A DNA stretch of 64,000 nucleotides. Source: Eublepharis macularius (lineage: Eukaryota; Chordata; Lepidosauria; Squamata; Eublepharidae). The stretch spans positions 159,768,397-159,832,396 of the forward strand of contig NC_072790.1 of assembly GCF_028583425.1 (NCBI RefSeq), read 5' to 3'. How positions within the stretch are numbered: the first letter of the stretch is position 1; every line of letters starts with the position of its first letter. Shown piece after piece: positions 4,885 through 63,201 of this stretch. The position numbers and the translations under genes are program-made. The notes under the pieces are model-generated. The model made no database searches and was not told the origin of the DNA. It saw only the letters and a list, made by a program, of their open reading frames with translations.

Positions 4885-5427
4885 TTACAAGGAAATGAAG
4901 TGCATACTGAATTTAAAGAGATGAGGCTTCTTTTCTAAGATGTTGCAACCAGTTATAAGAAACAGGAACATGAAATGCCTGCTGAATCTAAAGAGACAAG
5001 GCTTCTTTTCTAGGTTGCTACAAACAGTTATAAGAAACGAATATTCAGTCTCATTGTTCAGACAGTTTGGTATTAGTAAATTTAATCTAAAAATCCATTC
5101 TGCTTCTCTTTGCAATAATTTACGTTGTATATCTGTTTCATGGGTGGATTTAATCACATCTACCACAGTAAATTGAAAATCACCGGTGTAAGGATGGCAT
5201 GCTATGAAATGGGAAGTTAATGGGGCATCCAAGACCTTATTTTTAATTCTTGATCTGTGTTCTTGGATTCTAACCTTTAGAGGTCTAGATGTACTGCCCA
5301 CATACAATAATCCACAAATATATATTACATATACAACATGGGTAGTAGTACATGTAGAAAAGGAAGAATCATAAATAAGTCTATGGGTTTTAGGATTCCA
5401 AATAAATGATAGAAAATTTGCACACAT
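4885..5427 (-). pseudogene. PLE1 GIY-YIG endonuclease domain
   Basis: Encodes VVYVIYICGLLYVGSTSRPL, then RIQEHRSRIKNK, LTSHFIACHP and LLQREAEWIFRLN. The VYVIYI...LYVGST pair is the GIY-YIG motif; the arginine and the EH following it and the E of REAEWIF fit the family's catalytic positions. In PLEs this nuclease nicks the target for primed reverse transcription. It is separated from its RT by the hAT-like insertion, so it is no longer a working gene. Confidence 0.8.
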
Positions 5428-14619: not shown

Positions 14620-16640
14620 AGACTAGAGAGATACACAACACCATGCTTTTTCTACTCTTTCCTATCCTCAGTGTTGTTCCTGAAAAGAAAAAGGATTCAT
14701 ATTCCTTTTCTGAAGCTTCAACCAGGCTCTGTATGAGAGTTTGTTCCATTCCACACATGCACTCTGCAGTGCAGGCACATGTACACACACTAGCTGCACA
14801 TAGTATGCTACTCTGCTAATGGCTCCAGAATCTAACAGAGTATAAAAAGTGCGCAGAGTGACTAATAAACTGCCCCACTAACTACCAAATTAAATTACCC
14901 TCAGCAGATTCACTACAGAAAAGCTCTGAGTGATGCAGTTTAACTCATGAGCGGAGGGAGAGAACAGTAGGAAGCTTTCTGAACAAGAGAGAAAAAGAGG
15001 AAAGGATGGACTCTTCAAATGCTGCTGCTGCAAACAGTGCTTGCTCCCAGCTCTCTCATCACAACCGGGGACAGTGTATCCCCCCACCAGAAGGAGGCTG
15101 GCACCAGCTGACCACACTGAAACCAGGCAACTACAGCATCTGGAAGGCAAGACTGGACATTGTTCTTAAATTTGAAGACCTATACAAGGTAATTATTGAT
15201 GATGAACACTCCCCCAACTGATCCCCCCATCGGAAACTTGCATGGGATCTAATTTCCTGTATAATGTCTTCAATGTTGGATGATTATTTATCATTAATCA
15301 GTGACATCAAATGGCCAAAGAGAAATGCCAAATTATAGAAACATCCCACAAAATGAGTGAGTTATAGCAATGTAACTGCAGAGAAAGCTAGCCACAACTC
15401 TGTACGTAGATGGATCCAGGGCCGGCGCCAGAGGTTTTGGCGCCTGCGGCAGCATGCCTTGCGCCTCTGCGCGGCGTGATGATGTCATCGCAGACGTCAT
15501 CACGCGCCGCAGGGGGGCTGGGCGGCACGCCGATCGCCGAAGCTGCGGGCTGCTGCTGGAGCGGCGCGCGGAGGCTGCTCCACGCGCCGCCCCAGCAGCA
15601 GCTCATGGCTTCTGCGCTCGGCCGGGGCGGAGGAGTGCGCAGCGGAGCTGAGGTGGCTGGCTGCAGCAGTAGCTGCAGCCAGCCAGGCAGCCCCGTGCCG
15701 CCGCCGCCACATGCCCCAGCCGAGCGCAGAAGCTGCGAGCCGGGGCTGGGGAGGCGCGCGGAGGCTGCTCCGTGCGTCACCCCAGCAGCAGCTCACGGTT
15801 TCTGCGCCCAGCTGGGGTGGAGGAGCGTGCAGCGGAGCTGGCGTGGGCTGGCTACAGCTGCTGCTGCAGCCATCCAGCCAGCTCCGTGCCGCCGCCGCCG
15901 CACGCCCCAGCTGGGCGCAGAAGCCGCGAGCCGCTGCTTGAGCGGCGCACAGAGGCTGTGCCCAGCTGGCGTGTGTGGCGGCGGCGGCGGCAGCAAGGGG
16001 CTGGCTGGCTGGCTGCAGCAGTAGCTGAAGGCAGCCCAGTCACTCCAGCTTCGCTGCGCGCACCTCCACCCCCAACACCCCCTCCAGCGCCCCTCCCGTG
16101 CACACGCGCCCGAGGCCACCGCCTACCTGGCCTCCATGGGCGCGCCGGCCCTGGATGGATCCAACTTTGATATAAACTTACAGACTTGTTTGTGTTGATG
16201 AGATACTGCAAATCACCTATGGATGAAAAGCAGAAGATCACTACTCTCCTGAGCTCTTACACTTTCTGTGATAGCCATGAACACTTTCTGTGTTTATGGC
16301 TATCAAGACTTTGATGGTGAGGAAGATCCACATCCGCTGTGATGGGCAGGAAATTCACATGGAGAGAGGAAGCTTTCCTCCAATGAGTGGGAGAACAGAT
16401 GTACAAAGCTTCCCAAGTCCTTCAAATCAGATACTAAGAAAATGTTTAAGAAAATGCAGTAACTCTTAATGTCCTGCCAAAGTACTACAAAGATGATGCA
16501 GGTTGCAGGAAATAGATTTTTCACATTTAAATGTGATTACATTCAACAGCGTGATTGCTGCCCTTATTTAGCAAAGCCATATAAATATTGAAGACACAGG
16601 AATGAAATGAATCACGTGAAAGACTGTAAGCAAGGGTGAA
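14620..16640 (+). mobile_element. Ty1/copia-like retroelement fossil (5' LTR and gag)
   Basis: An LTR-like segment, about 14672-14895, has a TATA box (AGTATAAAAAG, near 14838). A leader follows, then a gag start at 15006 whose WHQLTTLKPGNYSIWKARLD and VLKFEDLYKVI match the conserved copia-type gag N-terminus. Gag-like text resumes after the hAT-like insertion, up to about 16640. No pol was found. Broken, with several breaks. Edges are approximate. Old, judging by decay. Confidence 0.6.
15417..16153. mobile_element. GC-rich hAT-like element (737 bp)
   Basis: Ends CAGGGCCGGCGC and GCGCCGGCCCTG flanked by a perfect 8-bp duplication GATGGATC (15409-15416, 16154-16161). The interior is GC- and CpG-rich with a repeated GCCGCCGCC..GCAGAAGC..GAGC unit that gives long but meaningless frames in all directions. 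It has no transposase. It sits inside the Copia gag. It resembles a CpG island by composition, but it is a repeat. Confidence 0.82.
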
Positions 16641-19179: not shown

Positions 19180-19610
19180 ATGGCTCAATTCAGACATCAC
19201 ACCAAATCATGTTAAGGAGAGCCAATTTGGTGTAGTGGTTAGGAGAGGCAGGACTCTAATCTGGAGAACCAGATTTGATTCCCCACTCCTCCGCTTGAAG
19301 CCAGCTGGGTGATCTTGGGTTAGTCACACCTCTTCCAGAGCTCTCTCAGGCCCACCCACCTCACAGATTGATTGTTGTGGGGATAATAATAAGATATTTT
19401 GTAAACCCCTCTGAGTGGGTATTAAGTTGTTCTGAAGGGCAGTATATAAATTGAATGTTGTTGTTGTTGTTGTTGTTGTTGTTCTTATGTCTGAATCAAC
19501 AAACCATGATACAACAGAAGTGGAAAACATTGTTTGAAGTGACATTTCAAACTATGTTTTGCACTAACTCCGGTTTGGTGTGGTGTCTGAATTTACAAAC
19601 TGTCATTATA
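19180..19610. mobile_element. Second MITE-like copy, split by a SINE
   Basis: The left end GGCTCAATTCAGACATCACACC and right end GGTGTGGTGTCTGAATTT are inverse forms of one another. The SINE at 19213-19483 is inserted in it. Confidence 0.5.
19213..19483 (+). mobile_element. tRNA-derived SINE
   Basis: GGTGTAGTGGTTAGGAG (A-box region), CAGATTTGATTCCCC (B-box region), then TGGGTGATCTTGGG, CCCACCCACCTCACAG and a LINE-like tail TGGGTATTAAGTTGTTCTGA ending in (TTG)n. The same family is at 21857-22110 (+) and 24367-24650 (-). Confidence 0.75.
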
Positions 19611-21856: not shown

Positions 21857-22110
21857 AGTTTGGTATAGTCGTTAAGAGCACAGGACTCTAATCTGGAGAG
21901 CTGGGTTTGATTCCCAACTCCTCCCCTTGAAGCCAGCTGGGTGACCTTGTGCTAGTCACAGTTCTCTGGAGCTCCCTCAGCCCCACCCACCTCACAGGGT
22001 GTTTTGTTGTGGGGATAATAATGACATACTTTGTAAACCACTCTGAGTGGGCATTAAGTTGTCCTGAAGGGCAGTATATAAATCTAATGTTATTATTATT
22101 ATAAATAATA
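21857..22110 (+). mobile_element. tRNA-derived SINE
   Basis: GTTTGGTATAGTCGTTAAGAG, GGGTTTGATTCCC, TGGGTGACCTTG, CCCACCCACCTCACAG, then the LINE-like tail and a (TTA)n end. Same family as 19213-19483. Confidence 0.75.
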
Positions 22111-24366: not shown

Positions 24367-24650
24367 TTGAATGACAACAACAACAACAACAACAACAGTA
24401 ATAGTAATAATAATATGATATATACCGCCCTTCAGGATGACTTAACACCCACTCAGAGCAGTTTACAAAGTATGTTGTTATCCCCACATCAATCACCCTG
24501 TGAGGTGGGTGGGGCTGAGAGAGCTCCTAGAAGCTGTGATTGACCCAAGATCACCCAGCTGGCTTCAAGTGGAGGAGTGGGGAATCAAAACTCGGTTCTC
24601 CAGATTAGAGTTCCGCACTCTTAATCACTACACCAGACTACAACAACAAC
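24367..24650 (-). mobile_element. tRNA-derived SINE
   Basis: Minus-strand copy of the 19213 family: (CAA)n, CCGCCCTTCAGGATGACTTA, CACTCAGAGCAGTTTACAAAG, CCTGTGAGGTGGGTGGGG, then the inverted tRNA-like head at the right end (CTCTTAATCACTACACCAG). Confidence 0.75.
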
Positions 24651-45314: not shown

Positions 45315-45847
45315 CCCACATTTGTTCAATAAACCCTCCTTGTCACTCTTTTCTTATCCATTGCATAGGATGGCCCACATCCTATGAAATGCCTCACATG
45401 CCTAACGATGACTGTGTCATGGTGAATATTTATGTCATTTACCAACACTCGCCACCTTTCTTCCTTGTTTCTGGAGAGGAGCAAACCCACTGTACTGTCT
45501 GGAATGTTGTTATAGGAAATAAAAAAATGAAAAATGGCATTTCCATCTGGCAATAAGTGGTAGATTTGTTTAGTATTACTTTAGTTATACAATGGCATCA
45601 ATGTTCATTTTCCTTTCCTGAAGTTTGTAAGCAAAAAAGGGGTGGGGGCTCAACTCTAAAAACACAATGTAAACCCTATATATCCAGTTATCCCTCAGTT
45701 CCTTCAACTACAGAACATCCAAGGCACATTCTTTTGGCAAATCTATAACCCCCTATCAGACAATGCTTAGGGCAGTCCTATTCATAGTAATCGAGACATC
45801 CTAAACCCAAAACACCAACCTGTAGTGAAGAAAGCTGATTAGAAAAA
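45315..45847. other. Unassigned sequence
   Basis: A 75-codon minus frame (45326-45553) has no recognisable family. Nothing else. Confidence 0.45.
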
Positions 45848-45935
45848 CAGCCAGATAAAATTGTCGAAGGCTTTCATGGCCGGAGAACGATGGTTGTTGT
45901 AGGTTTTCCGGGCTGTATTGCCATGGTCCTGGCAA

Positions 45936-45990
45936 TGTAGTTCCTGACGTTTCGCCAGCAGCTGTGGCTGGCATCTTCAGAGGTGTAGCA
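45936..45990 (-). ncRNA. Hammerhead-ribozyme-like motif, left arm of PLE3
   Basis: On the minus strand: CTGAAGA (45980-45974, fits CUGANGA), stem II GCCAGC/GCTGGC, GAAA (45953-45950) and a GTC at the cleavage position, with CCT/AGG available for stem I. PLEs are known to carry hammerheads in their terminal repeats. Activity is not shown. Confidence 0.7.
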
Positions 45991-46055
45991 CCAAAAGACA
46001 GAGATCTCTCAGTGTCACAGTGTGGAAAAGGTGTTGGCAGGTCATTTATATCTAC

Positions 46056-46592
46056 TCAGGAGGGGTGGGGTTGAGCTGAGTCATCCTGTAAGAGTTTCCC
46101 AGGGTGTGGAATGCTAATGGCGGGAGGCTTCACTGTATCCTGAGGAGGTTCTTTTGCATATGGATTGGTGCTTGATGTGCTAATCTTCTCCGCAGGGCTA
46201 TTGTCGGGTGTAGAGTGTTTTGTTAGCCTGGTGTTTTTCAGAACTGGAAACCATGCTCTGTTCATTCTTAAGGTTTCTTCTTTCCTGTTGAAGTTTTGGT
46301 TATGCTTGTGAATTTCAATGGCTTCCCTGTGCAGTCTGACAAAGTAGTTGGAAGTGTTGTCCAGTATTTTGGTGTCCTGGAATAAGATACTGTGCCCTGT
46401 TTGTGTTAGGCTATGTTCAGCCACTGCTGATTTTTCAGGTTGTCCAAGTCTGCAGTGTCTTTCATGTTCTTTTATTCTTGTCTGGATGCTACGCTTTGTG
46501 GTCCCGATGTACACTTGTCCACAGCTGCAGGGTATACGGTATACTCCTGCAGAGGTGAGGGGGTCTCTACTGTCTTTTGCTGATCGTAGCAT
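46056..46592 (-). pseudogene. PLE3 GIY-YIG endonuclease (left arm)
   Basis: 178 codons: AGVYRIPCSCGQVYIGTTKR is the GIY-YIG motif with a CxC, then IQTRIKEHERHCRL, AVAEHSLTQTGHSI and HREAIEIHKHNQNFNR. The domain is complete, and the frame continues to the usual PLE C-terminus. The RT half in this orientation is absent, so it can only be a passenger. Confidence 0.82.
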
Positions 46593-46683
46593 CTGTTGTA
46601 TTTTTTGGGTGGGTCTGAATACTGCTTGAAGGTTATGCTTTTCATAAGCTTTCCCATCTGATCAGTAATTCCTTTGATATATG

Positions 46684-47185
46684 TCCACCTGAACATACAA
46701 TTCACAATGGAGAAAGAAATCGAGGGAAAACTCCCATTCCTGGATACCTTGGTCATCCGCAAAGCAAACTTTCAGTTAGGTCACAAGGTCTACAAGGTCA
46801 CACTGATCGGTACTTACAAAAAAACTCCAATCACCACCCCCGACAGAAAAGAGGCATAATGAAAACATTAGTGGATCGTGCAAGACGGATATGTGAGCCG
46901 CACTTTCTCAATGAGGAAATTAATCATCTAAACCACGCACTTCAGGCAAATGGCTACTCCAGAAATGAAATCCGAAGAGCAATCAAACCCAGGATGAATG
47001 AAACAACCAAGGAAAAACAGTCTCCTACAGGAAAAGTGTTTTTGCCATATATCAAAGGAATTATTGATCAGATGGGAAAGCTTATGAAAAAGCATAACCT
47101 TCAAGCAGTATTTAGACCCACCCGAAAAATACAACAGATGTTACGATCAGCAAAAGACAGTAGAACAGGAAAGAAGAAACCTTAA
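46684..47185 (+). pseudogene. PLE3 RT C-terminus and linker (right arm)
   Basis: IQFTMEKEIEGKLPFLDTLV (end of RT) and the linker VDRARRICEPHFLNEEINHL, NGYSRNEIRRAIKP, then YIKGIIDQMGKLM. Two frames are used. At 47163 it skips directly to the segment after GIY-YIG. Confidence 0.78.
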
Positions 47186-47463
47186 GAATGAACAGAGCAT
47201 GGTTTCCAGTTCTGAAAAACACCAGGCTAACAAAACACTCTACACCCGACAATAGCCCTGCGGAGAAGATTAGCACATCAAGCACCAATCCATATGCAAA
47301 AGAACCTCCTCAGGATACAGTGAAGCCTCCCGCCATTAGCATTCCACACCCTGGGAAACTCTTACAGGATGACTCAGCTCAACCCCACCCCTCCTGAGTA
47401 GATATAAATGACCTGCCAACACCTTTTCCACACTGTGACACTGAGAGATCTCTGTCTTTTGGT

Positions 47464-47517
47464 GCTACACCTCTGAAGATGCCAGCCACAGCTGCTGGCG
47501 AAACGTCAGGAACTACA
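47464..47517 (+). ncRNA. Hammerhead-ribozyme-like motif, right arm of PLE3
   Basis: CTGAAGA (47473-47479), stem II GCCAGC/GCTGGC, GAAA (47500-47503) and GTC ending at 47507, the expected cleavage point. It mirrors the motif in the left arm. Confidence 0.72.
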
Positions 47518-47573
47518 ATGCCAAGACCATGGCAATACAGCCCGGAAAACCCACAACAACCAGCCAGATAAAA

Positions 47574-48353
47574 ATTTTGCATATTATTTTATGCTATAAA
47601 AACTTTTATCTTATTGTGCATTCTAACAATGAAATCAACCAAGTGCATGTTGTTTTCATCCGTTCGTGAACTGAGAAGCTAATTTCAGACCATTAGAAGA
47701 GAACAGAAGTACCTAATGCTTTCAATATAAGCACCAATCACTTTTTTCTTCTCCTTCATAGAACACTTAGAAGAAATATATATAAGGCCATTGAATAATG
47801 ATTTTCATGCATCTCCTTCTGAGGCTATAAGAAAATGCTACTGTCATTTCTGTCCTAAAGTATGCACTGAATATTTATGAGAAGATGGCAATAAACATAC
47901 CACTTACACTAACTAATAAAAATGTCACTTTGGGGTAATTATGTCTAACCTCCACGCTTCAGGAATAAGTTTTGTACATGTGGACAAAGTACATTCACCT
48001 TGGAAAGTCAACTGTTAAGGATATTTTCACAAAATTAAAAGATTTTACTGATGAATTGGTGGATGGCAGAACACTTAGTACAAATATAATAGACAGATGG
48101 CTTGACTAATTAATTAAAATTGGATGAATAAAGGCAAAGAATGTTATTCTTCCCAAATAAAAACACGTGTAAGATTGTAAAAGCTTATTTACTCAAGTAA
48201 TTTGTAGGCTTGCTTTCCCCCATTAGATGTTGTACCTTCAGAAGTTCTCAAGATTTTAATGCAGACACCATTTCACTATGGAATCCAGATGCTGAGGTGG
48301 AATGGTTCTTTCATAGAAATACTCAAAGGAAATTTTTAAAAGGGAGAAATAGC
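47574..48353. other. Unassigned sequence
   Basis: AT-rich; no frame or repeat recognised. Confidence 0.5.
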
Positions 48354-48399
48354 TATACTGGAATCCTGACAACAAAAAGGGCTAATCACGGGTAATCAG

Positions 48400-48735
48400 C
48401 ACAACAATACAGACAAAAGGCCCCACAATACACCAGTCGGTCTACAATATACAGTAACAAATTCCAATGTAATTTTTATACTTTTTATGATTTTATATTG
48501 AAGTGCTCAGAGCACTTAAACATAATCAATGTTATGTCAATGAACATATAACTCAAATAACTGGAATTATATAAATTACAGCCACCAGCATCAACCAATA
48601 ATCCTATGCGCCAGAGATTAGTCAAGTAACAATGAATGAACCATACAATAAATCACATTCTCAAAACTCACTGACTGTCAATATCAAGACACCATTTACA
48701 ATAAACAGTACAATAAATACAATTCCAATATCCTA
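48400..48735 (+). repeat. Inverted repeat arm, left (PLE2)
   Basis: CAACAATACAGACAAAAGG, CACCAGTCG, AATTCCAATGTAATTTTTAT, ACAGCCACCAGCATCAACC and ATGAATGAACCATACAATA occur in inverse order at 50745-51044. Differences are few and scattered. Confidence 0.88.
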
Positions 48736-49295
48736 AAACAGTGTTACAAAAATAGATATCTATGGCACAAGGCTACACTCTGTATATTAAAGTTCAACCG
48801 GGGCAGAATGGTAGTGGTGAGTAGTGGAAATATCTCTTCAGATAGAGTTCTTCAATATATCAAGAGAAGGATGTCCAATCTCACCAATGTGGACTTCACT
48901 GCTATTACAACATATCTCTCCTACTCCACAGGTAGCACCAATTGCGACTCCAAGGTACTGTAGAAGAGCTGTGCCTCCGGACCTTAAGTGCTATGAGGTG
49001 ATCCAAATCAACCCGATTCGTCCCGACAGGATGCTAGCTACTTGCCTGTTTTGTGTATACAAAACCCCGTTCAAAACTAGCCTTGTTATATTATGAATAA
49101 AGTGTTAAAAAAGATTACTCACAGTTTTTGTCCAGCATATAATCACAACCGAGTTCTTTCCTCAGTCAATGAGCTGGTGATTCACTAATCCCTGATTGGG
49201 TTCTTTAAAAAAATCCTAATTTAACCTCTGACTGTCTGAATTCCATTTAAAAGTATATCTCGATAGCTTTTCATGTAGTACAGTCCTGCTGAACT

Positions 49296-49616
49296 CTACA
49301 GATAACAAGAGTAGTCAATAAATAAATTCAAACCATGAGGTTTAATGCAGTTCAGTTCATATATCCAAAAAGCTTCTCTCCTTAATAGTTCCCTTTGAAA
49401 GTCCCTAGATCTTCCTGCCTTAATGACCTGTAATACTGCAAAATGGAACTGTTTGGCATCACTATGGCAATCCAGAAAATGTTGTGTAAGAGGAGCCTCC
49501 AAATTCTTATTCCTAATTCTGGAAATGTATTCCTGGATGTGTGTCTTCGCTGATCTTTGTGTACTGCCTACATAAACTAAAGGACAGCTACATTCAATAA
49601 TATAGACCACCCCCAT
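49296..49616 (-). pseudogene. PLE2 GIY-YIG endonuclease
   Basis: MGVVYIIECSCPLVYVGSTQ is the GIY-YIG motif with CxC. IQEYISRIRNKN, LTQHFLDCHSD and LLRREAFWIYELN follow. Near-complete domain, separated from the RT frame by at least one break. Confidence 0.82.
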
Positions 49617-49962
49617 GGCACTACACGTAGAGAAACCTTTTAAATGGATGACCTGGCCAGTGTTAGTGATTTTAAATTAAGGTCCTGAAGAGGCTAACTC
49701 ACACACGTTGCATCTGCCACACTGACAGTGTCCTTTAAGGGTCCTGTTCTGTCGGAGGATTACGGAATTCAGAGTGCACTAATAGGTCTCTGAAATTACA
49801 GGTGCGTCGAAAACTGACAGATGGCGGTTGCTCACAGCCCAGTATGTGTGCAACCAGATGCCAGTGGGATTTAATTATTTTGCTTATGCTACTGGCCAAA
49901 TGAGTGTAGTCTACTGCCCATTTAAGAGTCCCGCCGTCCATCTTAACATGCTCCTGAAAGAG

Positions 49963-50829
49963 CTATGTTCTATTTCTATTGGCTGCCCTATTCACAGCCC
50001 TATTAATGATCCTCTTAGGATATCCCCATTGGCGAAAGTCCCGGCTAAGGAGATCTCTTTTCCTGCTGTAATCTACATCCCTAGTAGAGTTTCTACGTAA
50101 TCTAAGATATTGTCCATAAGGTAAATTGTAACAGAGATGATGGGGGTGATGTGATTGGAAATGTAAATATGAATTTTGATCAGACCCTTTCTTAAAGGGC
50201 CGGATACCAATAGTATTCAAATGAGTCCTGAAGGTGACAACATCCAGGAAGCTAATGCATTTGGAACTATGCTGCCAGGTAAAACAAATATTGGAATCAA
50301 GTGTATTCATCCAGTTAACAAATTGTTCTACAGTATGTTTCTCTTTATAAATAAAATACAGGTCATTGATGTAGCGGCGGAACAGCTGTATATTGGAATA
50401 AAAGGGATTGGCATTTGGATCTTGTATAGTGCACGCCTCCAATCTGGCCATATACAAGTTGGCAATAGAGGGGGCGGCCGCACACCCCATGGCCACCCCC
50501 TTTGTCTCATAATAGAAATATCCTCTGAACTGGAAGTAGTTCTTCTCAATGAAAATGTCTAACAGTAAGAATGGAATGAGAGGGTCCTTATGTCCACTCT
50601 GATGCAGGGCTTGCTCAACCACTATTCTAATGTCCTCATGGGGTATAGAGGTATAGAGTACTGAGACATCCATGGTCAGCATGACTGAATCAGGAGTAAA
50701 AGACTGCCCCTCCACAAGGCTGATAAATTCTCTAGTGTCTTTCATATAAGTGGAGGTAAATGGTGTCTTGATATTGATATTGGCAGTCAATAAGTTTTGA
50801 GAATGTGATTTATTGTATGGTTCATTCAT
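49963..50829 (-). pseudogene. PLE2 reverse transcriptase
   Basis: 288 codons, one frame. VMLTMDVSVLYTSIPHEDI is RT motif A, GVAMGCAAAPSIANLYMARL motif B and FRRYINDLYFIYK motif C. Further along are SFLDVVTFRTHLN and YLRLRRNSTRD. PLEs have YIDD at motif C; here it is YIND, so a catalytic aspartate is changed to asparagine and the enzyme is probably dead. The frame starts at motif A, lacking the N-terminal DKG region and RT1-2. PLE RTs are related to telomerase. Confidence 0.88.
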
Positions 50830-51171
50830 TGTTACTTGACTAATCTTCTCCGGCGCATAGGATTATTGGTTGATGCTGGTGGCTGTAATTTATATAATGC
50901 TAGTTATTTAAGTTATATATTCATTGATATTCATGTACTGAGCACTTTAACATAAAATTATAAAAAATATAAAAATTACATTGGAATTTATTACTGTGTA
51001 TTGTAGAACGACTGGTATATTGCGGGGACTTTTGTCTGTATTGTTATACTGGAATCCTGGGCAACCGTGACTGTATGTCAGTCAGTGGAGAAGACATATC
51101 AACCAAGAGGTGAAGGAAAAATAACTTATTGGACCTAACATTTGCAATGCAACTCACATAAGGTAAGATCT

Positions 51172-62336: not shown

Positions 62337-62460
62337 GAGGAGTTAGCCGTGTTAGTCTGTGGTAGCAAAATCAAAAAGAGTCCAGTAGCACCTTTAAGAC
62401 TAACCAATTTTATTGTAGCATAAGCTTTCGAGAATCAAGTTCTCTTCGTCAGATGCATGG
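62337..62460 (-). mobile_element. Short PLE-terminal repeat with hammerhead-like core
   Basis: Minus strand: GATGCATCTGACGAAGAGAA, CTTGATTCTCGAAAGCTTAT, GGTTAGTCTTAAAGGTGCTA and GACTAACACGGCTAACTCCT. CTGACGA fits CUGANGA, GAGAA/TTCTC forms stem II and GAAA follows. Best preserved of the short copies. Confidence 0.72.
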
Positions 62461-62589
62461 TACAGAAACTGGTCAAATATAGAAGAGGAGAGGGGAGGAG
62501 AGCGAAGATGCAATTGGGGGGGAGAGGGAGGATGCAACCAAAACATTCCTTTGTTAGTGAATGTAAACATCTCCTTTTGGTGTGAGGTT

Positions 62590-62740
62590 TCAAAGGAGTT
62601 TGCCGTGTTAGTTTGTAGCAGTAAAACAGCTAGACCATTCAATTCCAATGCAGTATAAGCCTTCGATAACCACAGCTCTCCCCGTCAGATGCATCTGACA
62701 AAGAGAACTGTGGTCCCCGAAAGCCCATGCCAGGTGCCAC
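62590..62740. repeat. Head-to-head pair of hammerhead-like repeats
   Basis: A minus copy (TAACACGGCAAACTCC inverse, CTTCGATAACCACAG) and a plus copy (GACAAAGAGAACTGTGGTC, CCCGAAAGCCCATGCC) meet at the perfect palindrome GTCAGATGCATCTGAC (62684-62699). The cores are decayed. Confidence 0.65.
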
Positions 62741-62775
62741 TGGGCTCCCCCAGACCCCGCCTCTGTAAAGGAGAT

Positions 62776-63201
62776 CTGTTACCTTTGATAATGTGATAAC
62801 CATTCATAGTCCCTATTCAGTCCCAGCTTGACAGAGTCAAATTTGCATATGAATTCCAATTCAGCAGCTTCCCGTTGGATTTTGTTTTTGAAAGGTTTCT
62901 GTTGAACTACAGTGACCTTTAAGTCTTTGATGGAATGTCCTGGTAGATTGAAGTGTTCTCCCACTGGTTTCTGGATGTTTCCATTTCTAATGTCAGATTT
63001 GTGTCCATTTATTCTTTTGCGTAGAGGTTGGCTGGTTTGTCCAATGTACAGAGCAGAAGGACATTGTTGGCACATGAGGGCATATATCAGATTGGAGGAT
63101 GAGCAGCTGTAAGAGCCAGAGACAGTGTAGTTGATGCCATTGGGTCCTGTAATTGTATTCCCTGGGTAGATATAGGGGCAGAGCTGGCATCTGGGATCCA
63201 C
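62776..63201 (-). pseudogene. PLE4 GIY-YIG endonuclease (left arm)
   Basis: 140 codons: MDPRCQLCPYI, NLIYALMCQQCPSALYIGQT (GIY-YIG with the upstream CxxC), RKRINGHKSDIRNGN, VGEHFNLPGHS and REAAELEFICKFDS. The domain looks complete. The start region faces the plus-strand PLE that begins a few bases to the right. Confidence 0.8.

Follow-up and report, generated by a model that had tools for sequence, protein, structure and literature searches.

The window analysed here is a stretch of 64,000 nucleotides from Eublepharis macularius (contig NC_072790.1). At positions 45848–47573 it contains a head-to-head pair of 5'-truncated copies of a Penelope-like element (PLE), in the following called the left and the right arm. 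The features of this locus are listed below.

45848..45860, plus strand: left copy of the target-site duplication, CAGCCAGATAAAA, 13 bp
45861..45890, minus strand: tail of the left arm, 30 nt (31 counting the shared A at 45891), outside the inverted repeat and without an equivalent on the right side
45861..46683, minus strand: left arm, 823 nt with the tail, 5'-truncated PLE copy (inverted-repeat, frame and motif evidence)
45946..45980, minus strand: minimal type I hammerhead-like core of the left arm, from CTGAAGA to H17, found by descriptor
46056..46661, minus strand: open frame of 201 aa, GVYRIPCSCGQVYIGTTKRS...RIKEH, GIY-YIG-type EN, holding GVYRIPCSCGQVYIGTTKRSIQTRIKEH
46683..46684, no strand: inner head-to-head junction, at which the arms meet directly
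46684..47562, plus strand: right arm, 879 nt, 5'-truncated PLE copy with a hammerhead motif and without a tail
47163..47164, plus strand: deletion junction of the right arm, from which 277 nt with the EN core are missing, 1-nt microhomology
47164..47517, plus strand: identical stretch of 354 nt, equal to left-arm positions 46289–45936
47473..47507, plus strand: minimal type I hammerhead-like core of the right arm, from CTGAAGA to H17, found by descriptor
47561..47573, plus strand: right copy of the target-site duplication, CAGCCAGATAAAA, of which the first two bases may be arm sequence

The arms are connected by the inverted repeats 45891–46289/47164–47562 (399 nt), 46566–46642/47088–47164 and 46639–46683/47046–47090. 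Alignment of both arms in sense orientation gave 516 paired columns, of which 509 were identical and 7 mismatched, and one 1-nt indel (A4/A5), which confirms the original prediction that they are inverse copies. The left arm comprises the end of an ORF with the GIY-YIG region, the 3' UTR, the hammerhead motif and the beginning of the ORF of the next unit. Its 277-nt segment 46290–46566, which contains the GVY...VYIG stretch, is absent from the right arm; thus, the GIY-YIG part is indeed lacking there, as had been noted. In turn, 362 additional nucleotides at the inner end of the right arm (46684–47045) have no counterpart in the left arm. Since each arm carries segments that the other lacks, neither of them is a complete copy of its partner. 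The tail, previously given as 31 nt on one side only, was found in the left arm alone with a length of 30–31 nt. The 1-nt microhomology at the right-arm deletion is uninformative. Inspection by eye showed breakpoints that are not GT-AG, and splicing was therefore rejected as the origin of this loss of 277 nt.

At the point where the arms meet no recognisable intervening sequence was observed. There was also no palindrome at this inner junction, the longest perfect hairpin measuring 6 bp (searched in 46600–46770 with a loop under 60), and snap-back complementarity was absent, 3 of the 12 bases beyond the junction fitting priming. Near-identical inverted arms may be misassembled, and the pair might for this reason be a false inverted duplication of the assembly. 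Such an artefact would yield matching arms, but neither a target duplication nor a one-sided tail nor a difference of 277 nt, and it is extremely improbable here.

The 7 differences and the indel flank the identical stretch (45936–46289/47164–47517) on either side. When the 22 nt inside the deletion junction are added, the identical run amounts to 376 columns, for which a post hoc test gave P = 0.00073 under random placement of the 7 differences. Because the run includes 354 nt beyond the deletion junction, deletion and tract may share one origin. A template switch during cDNA synthesis, a later conversion between the arms, or chance may account for them.

The word CAGCCAGATAAAA occurs in the window at 45848 and 47561 and nowhere else on either strand, in agreement with the exact 13-bp duplication described before. 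The right arm may end in ...ACC or in ...ACCA and the assignment of CA is therefore ambiguous, so that the duplication has to be given as 11–13 bp. At 150 other spacings, exact matches of at least 11 nt occurred with a frequency of 3.2e-7 per position and matches of at least 13 nt at 0 of 9,293,952 positions. The target is A/T-rich at both edges, with AAAAA before and ATTTT after the duplication. No duplication belonging to either arm by itself was detected in zones by the inner and outer ends, where the best exact repeat had 4 nt. The comparison of 13 nt for the pair with at most 4 nt per arm points to a single insertion. Consequently, the arrival of both arms in one insertion is supported, and the earlier proposal that they were inserted as one unit holds. 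Alternatively, a second PLE copy could have inserted into or beside the first in the opposite orientation, and the 7 differing columns (of 516) together with the indel would allow different source copies. However, the arms abut each other and share one duplication, and two separate insertions are improbable.

The open frame of the left arm, which lacks one base (A4 instead of A5) and is thereby shifted upstream compared with the right arm, gave a match to the Pfam family T5orf172 (PF10544) with an E-value of 0.024 and a score of 15.6 bits (cut-off 20). Its EN was aligned to three other EN fragments of the window, with identities of 25–31%. Ten columns were invariant among the four sequences (Y41, C47, Y51, G53, T55, I63, H83, R112, E113 and A114). 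Two of the three other fragments scored above the Pfam GIY-YIG cut-off; the fragment at 49296–49676 remained below it (21.1 versus 22.6). For the right-arm ORFs 46619–47185, 46662–46859 and 47164–47397 no Pfam RT match was obtained, the RT core being truncated away. The inner plus-strand ORFs of this arm presumably represent the end of a PLE RT and a linker. In both arms a frame MPATAAGETSGTT(L/M)P(G/R)PWQYSPEN(L/P)QQP (MPATAAGETSG...) begins at stem II of the hammerhead motif and continues to the arm ends, which lie at nt 114 (left) and nt 82–84 (right) of this frame. In sense orientation the left-arm tail ends with ...CCTTCGACAA at this nt 114.

The locus therefore displays several features of EN-containing PLEs. 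The pLTR overlaps the ORF start in both arms, and of the direct tandem or inverted pLTR copies known for this group it has the inverted form as a head-to-head pair; a direct tandem copy was not present at 45848–47573. The short target-site duplication of 11–13 bp and the optional tail of 30–40 bp at one end, here of the left arm, complete the picture. Thus, assignment to the PLEs, already made in the original prediction, is supported by the architecture, while the Pfam domain scores are weak. Taken singly, the locus is an ordinary dead PLE copy. The element presumably resembles reptile PLEs. Pattern scans and tblastn searches of viral, bacterial or archaeal contig, plasmid and phage collections confirmed no relatives; three stretches in one scan of viral contigs and one in another fitted the pattern, none of which was confirmed. 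As these collections are viral, bacterial or archaeal, absence of relatives there says nothing. A search of PDB sequences returned one irrelevant match (E 0.91), and an NCBIfam search with three proteins returned two irrelevant weak matches, both for one protein.

The core letters of the hammerhead ribozyme are CTGANGA and GAAA. CTGAAGA is found at 47473 on the plus strand and at 45980 on the minus strand. In each arm it is followed by a 6-bp stem II, GAAAC and GTC, with 3 bp of stem I at the core. Inspection by eye suggested a further outer helix, TTTTGG/CCA(A/G)GA, in both versions of the motif. The motif was searched with a descriptor consisting of CTGANGA, stem II, GAAA, NUH, stem I pairing and a reduced helix III. 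A first version found 0 matches in the window and one match in 2 of 200 shuffles; it was then relaxed by one unpaired base before stem II. The relaxed descriptor gave 3 matches in the window, one in each arm and a third at 62452, which is separated from another GIY-YIG fragment by about 0.4 kb. Dinucleotide shuffles (500) contained 0.044 matches on average, with one match in 22 of them and two or more in 0. With the Rfam hammerhead models, the covariance-model check proposed for the motifs, no match was obtained in the window at the gathering score, nor did the stretches 45840–47600 and 47420–47570 contain a hammerhead at E-values up to 10. At this threshold two matches per stretch were found, all to unrelated families and far below their gathering scores.

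The hammerheads of PLE pLTRs have been described as minimal type I ribozymes which lack helix III (PMC6155905, PMC7761336), and this reduction would account for the failure of the Rfam models. With these pLTR hammerheads both motifs of the locus share the position in the pLTR and a core without a real helix III; judged by their letters, they fit the minimal PLE type. Unlike them, the gecko motifs lie on opposite strands, and a single read-through transcript would not contain the tandem sense pair needed for dimeric cleavage. The claim of one hammerhead per arm therefore stands as far as the relaxed minimal descriptor is concerned and found no backing from the Rfam models. RNA folding of four stretches yielded z-scores of −1.91, −1.31, −1.08 and −0.84 and thus no strong support. 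In the best fold of the right-arm monomer the cleavage-site strand appeared, by eye, to pair with part of the core. As this predicted fold occupies part of the core, self-cleavage by the motif alone is doubtful.

The placement of a motif at the very end of each arm had to be corrected, since the arms continue beyond the predicted cleavage site, by 55 nt in the right arm and by 85 nt, including the tail, in the left one. Neither template was thus cut there. With the motifs on opposite strands, a read-through transcript would have only one of them in sense. Both arms end inside the start of the ORF of a following unit, which points to a read-through RNA as the template.

The overall layout has precedents. 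Inverted pLTRs and short 3' extensions are described as peculiarities of PLEs (PMC8969392), and a typical Penelope is depicted with an inverted pLTR, in one example with a 9-bp duplication, and with a 31-bp tail that is optional on one inverted pLTR (PMC3846280). Closest to the present locus are Pen2a_Av and Pen2_Av from Adineta vaga as described in PMC3846280. Shared features are inverted terminal copies of which one is truncated, a short target duplication (9–10 bp in the rotifer), the optional one-sided tail of 31 bp and an internal deletion, which in one rotifer derivative was microhomology-mediated. Unlike these elements, the gecko locus lacks the RT core in both copies, has arms of hundreds of bases and contains neither a direct tandem pLTR nor a palindrome at the inverted junction. 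Consequently, the architecture of the locus is not new in kind. The statement that inverted repeats and hammerheads are known from PLEs agrees with the literature (PMC3846280, PMC8969392, PMC6155905, PMC7761336). The further statement that the arrangement is informative about integration stands in part: the layout itself has been printed as typical (PMC3846280), and the informative part is that the arms are not whole copies of each other and that the same asymmetry occurs in two PLE families of one window.

For the completion of PLE integration two models have been offered in print, self-priming (PMC3846280, 2013) and, more recently, a reaction in which the two target strands are both cut and extended (PMC11167929, 2024). 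The latter work deals with Poseidon from Anolis carolinensis (PAc), whose protein was found in vitro to cut the two strands of the target and to extend each of them. Reverse transcription by PAc has two internal start sites, and what lies between them makes up the genomic tail. Synthesis starts most often 111–118 nt into the ORF, at an AC-rich stem loop. This ORF starts at stem II of the hammerhead, mutants of the hammerhead still insert, and the motif of the anole PLE is not cleaved without protein (PMC11167929). Common to PAc and the gecko locus are the hammerhead overlapping the ORF start and a tail, which in PAc lies between two start sites; in contrast, the in vitro work on PAc concerned a complete element, and 45848–47573 is a genomic insertion that is truncated. 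In the main text of PMC11167929 "inverted" is used a single time, with reference to the blocked end of an oligonucleotide.

The best explanation for the locus, and probably the correct one, is target-primed reverse transcription that began at both ends of a single staggered cut and used two alternative start sites on the RNA. In such a reaction the PLE protein would cut both target strands at positions 11–13 nt apart and leave protruding 3' ends; as the duplicated word adjoins the 3' terminus of each arm, direct priming would need 3' overhangs of 11–13 nt. Each 3' end would then prime reverse transcription on a tandem read-through PLE RNA, so that two RNA templates would be used. The RNA would offer two internal start sites separated by about 30 nt; synthesis on the left strand would have begun at the distal one, which includes the tail, and synthesis on the right strand at the proximal one without it. 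Both cDNAs would have stopped early, giving the 5' truncation, and the joining of their ends would have left the copies head to head, with the target duplicated on either side. Template switching or later gene conversion would explain why the right arm lost 277 nt and why a tract of 376 nt is identical.

Several observations argue for this two-ended priming. There is one duplication for the pair and none per arm. The tail is one-sided, the 5' ends are unlike and each arm has segments of its own, and the inner junction contains neither a palindrome nor a snap-back fit. The arm ends at nt 82–84 and nt 114, one per target strand, have the form expected from the PAc reaction. Furthermore, a second PLE of another family in the same window has the same layout (see below). 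Other observations speak against it. Here it is the proximal site that carries the AC-rich stretch, whereas the distal end (nt 114) is not rich in AC, and the PAc sites thus find no one-to-one match; this mismatch with the anole PLE makes priming from both ends slightly less and self-priming slightly more credible. The AC-rich hairpin folded no better than shuffled sequences (z-scores of −0.84 and −1.31 for two versions), the cut sites of the second PLE do not show the published preference for AT-rich sequence to any notable degree, and the EN and RT families are weak or absent in Pfam for the element at 45848–47573.

A further objection comes from rotifer PLEs, which show abundant palindromes at inverted junctions. 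Their authors explained head-to-head Penelope copies with such junctions by self-priming on an antisense template (PMC3846280). Applied to the gecko locus, the PLE template would fold back on itself, its copying would yield a mirror-image repeat, and the resulting hairpin would be inserted. Self-priming and two-ended priming make opposite predictions for tail usage, arm content and junction palindromes, and the locus and its neighbour are genomic footprints by which they could be told apart. The left arm has the tail and the EN and the right arm has the inner sequence, each of which is missing in the other, and neither element of the window has a palindrome or priming complementarity at its inner junction. 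The EN segment could have been lost later, but a loss of the tail that spares the duplication would be unlikely. Self-priming is therefore an unlikely origin of this pair.

A different use of both 3' ends of a target cut is known from L1 elements, in which twin priming on a single RNA leads to 5' inversion. The product of L1-type twin priming contains the RNA 3' end once and an inverted, non-overlapping 5' part. At the gecko locus the same 3' region is present in both arms, which contradicts such a product unless one RNA was used twice, and we regard this origin as highly improbable. Finally, one copy of a direct tandem PLE insertion could have been inverted later by recombination. Partial copies in direct tandem are frequent among PLEs (PMC8969392, PMC3846280), but the inversion would need pre-existing inverted repeats and would have to spare both edges of the duplication exactly, which makes this course of events very unlikely.

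The second fold-back PLE is located at 48354–51059 and has inverted arms of about 300 nt (48397–48699/50756–51051). Its duplication, TATACTGGAATCCTG, has 15 bp and occurs at its two edges only. The arms differ by 19 mismatches in 274 columns, a count from which indels, a block of 6 nt and the 7 nt shared with the duplication were excluded. At the inner junction no palindrome above 7 bp was detected, and 3 of 12 bases fitted a snap-back. The tail is again present on the left only and measures 28 nt, or 35 nt if the right arm stops before the duplication. The edges are not clearly A/T-rich. An RT fragment at 49963–50862 (minus strand) matched RVT_1 with an E-value of 4e-6, just below the cut-off, and a GIY-YIG fragment at 49296–49676 (minus strand) also stayed below the cut-off with an E-value of 4e-4. 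At the DNA level the two PLEs gave three short weak matches only (E 0.17 to 0.58). By eye, a decayed CCTGTCGGGACGAATCGGG at 49000–49040 (minus strand), which the descriptor did not find, may be a hammerhead remnant of the second PLE.

GIY-YIG sequences were found at 4 places in the window. At 2 of them inverted arms of at least 40 nt lie within 6 kb, both with a one-sided tail; at the other two, 5038–5388 and 62863–63090, no inverted arms of this length were found within the same distance. Head-to-head inverted PLE copies might in general derive from both ends of one staggered break, with either start site available to each strand, and at the present locus the right-arm cDNA might in addition have switched templates, so that a single event would account for the loss of 277 nt as well as for the identical tract of 376 nt. 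We put this wider reading forward tentatively and consider it possible rather than probable. In titles and abstract openings of the matches listed, mostly from open-access literature, inverted PLE copies were not attributed to two-ended priming.

Some further elements of the window deserve mention. A third PLE-like locus at 62422–63090 (minus strand) consists of the GIY-YIG fragment 62863–63090 followed by the hammerhead-like motif 62452–62422. Near 62690 a second, more decayed hammerhead-like motif was seen by eye, suggesting tandem pLTRs. The GIY-YIG fragment at 5038–5388 (minus strand) scores above the Pfam cut-off and shares 50% identity with the fragment 49299–49676 over 118 aligned positions. 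At 15535–16054 inverted repeats overlap in a cluster that looks G+C-rich. Repeats in both orientations at 19271–19486, 21857–22080 and 24379–24639 are presumably copies of a tRNA-derived SINE.
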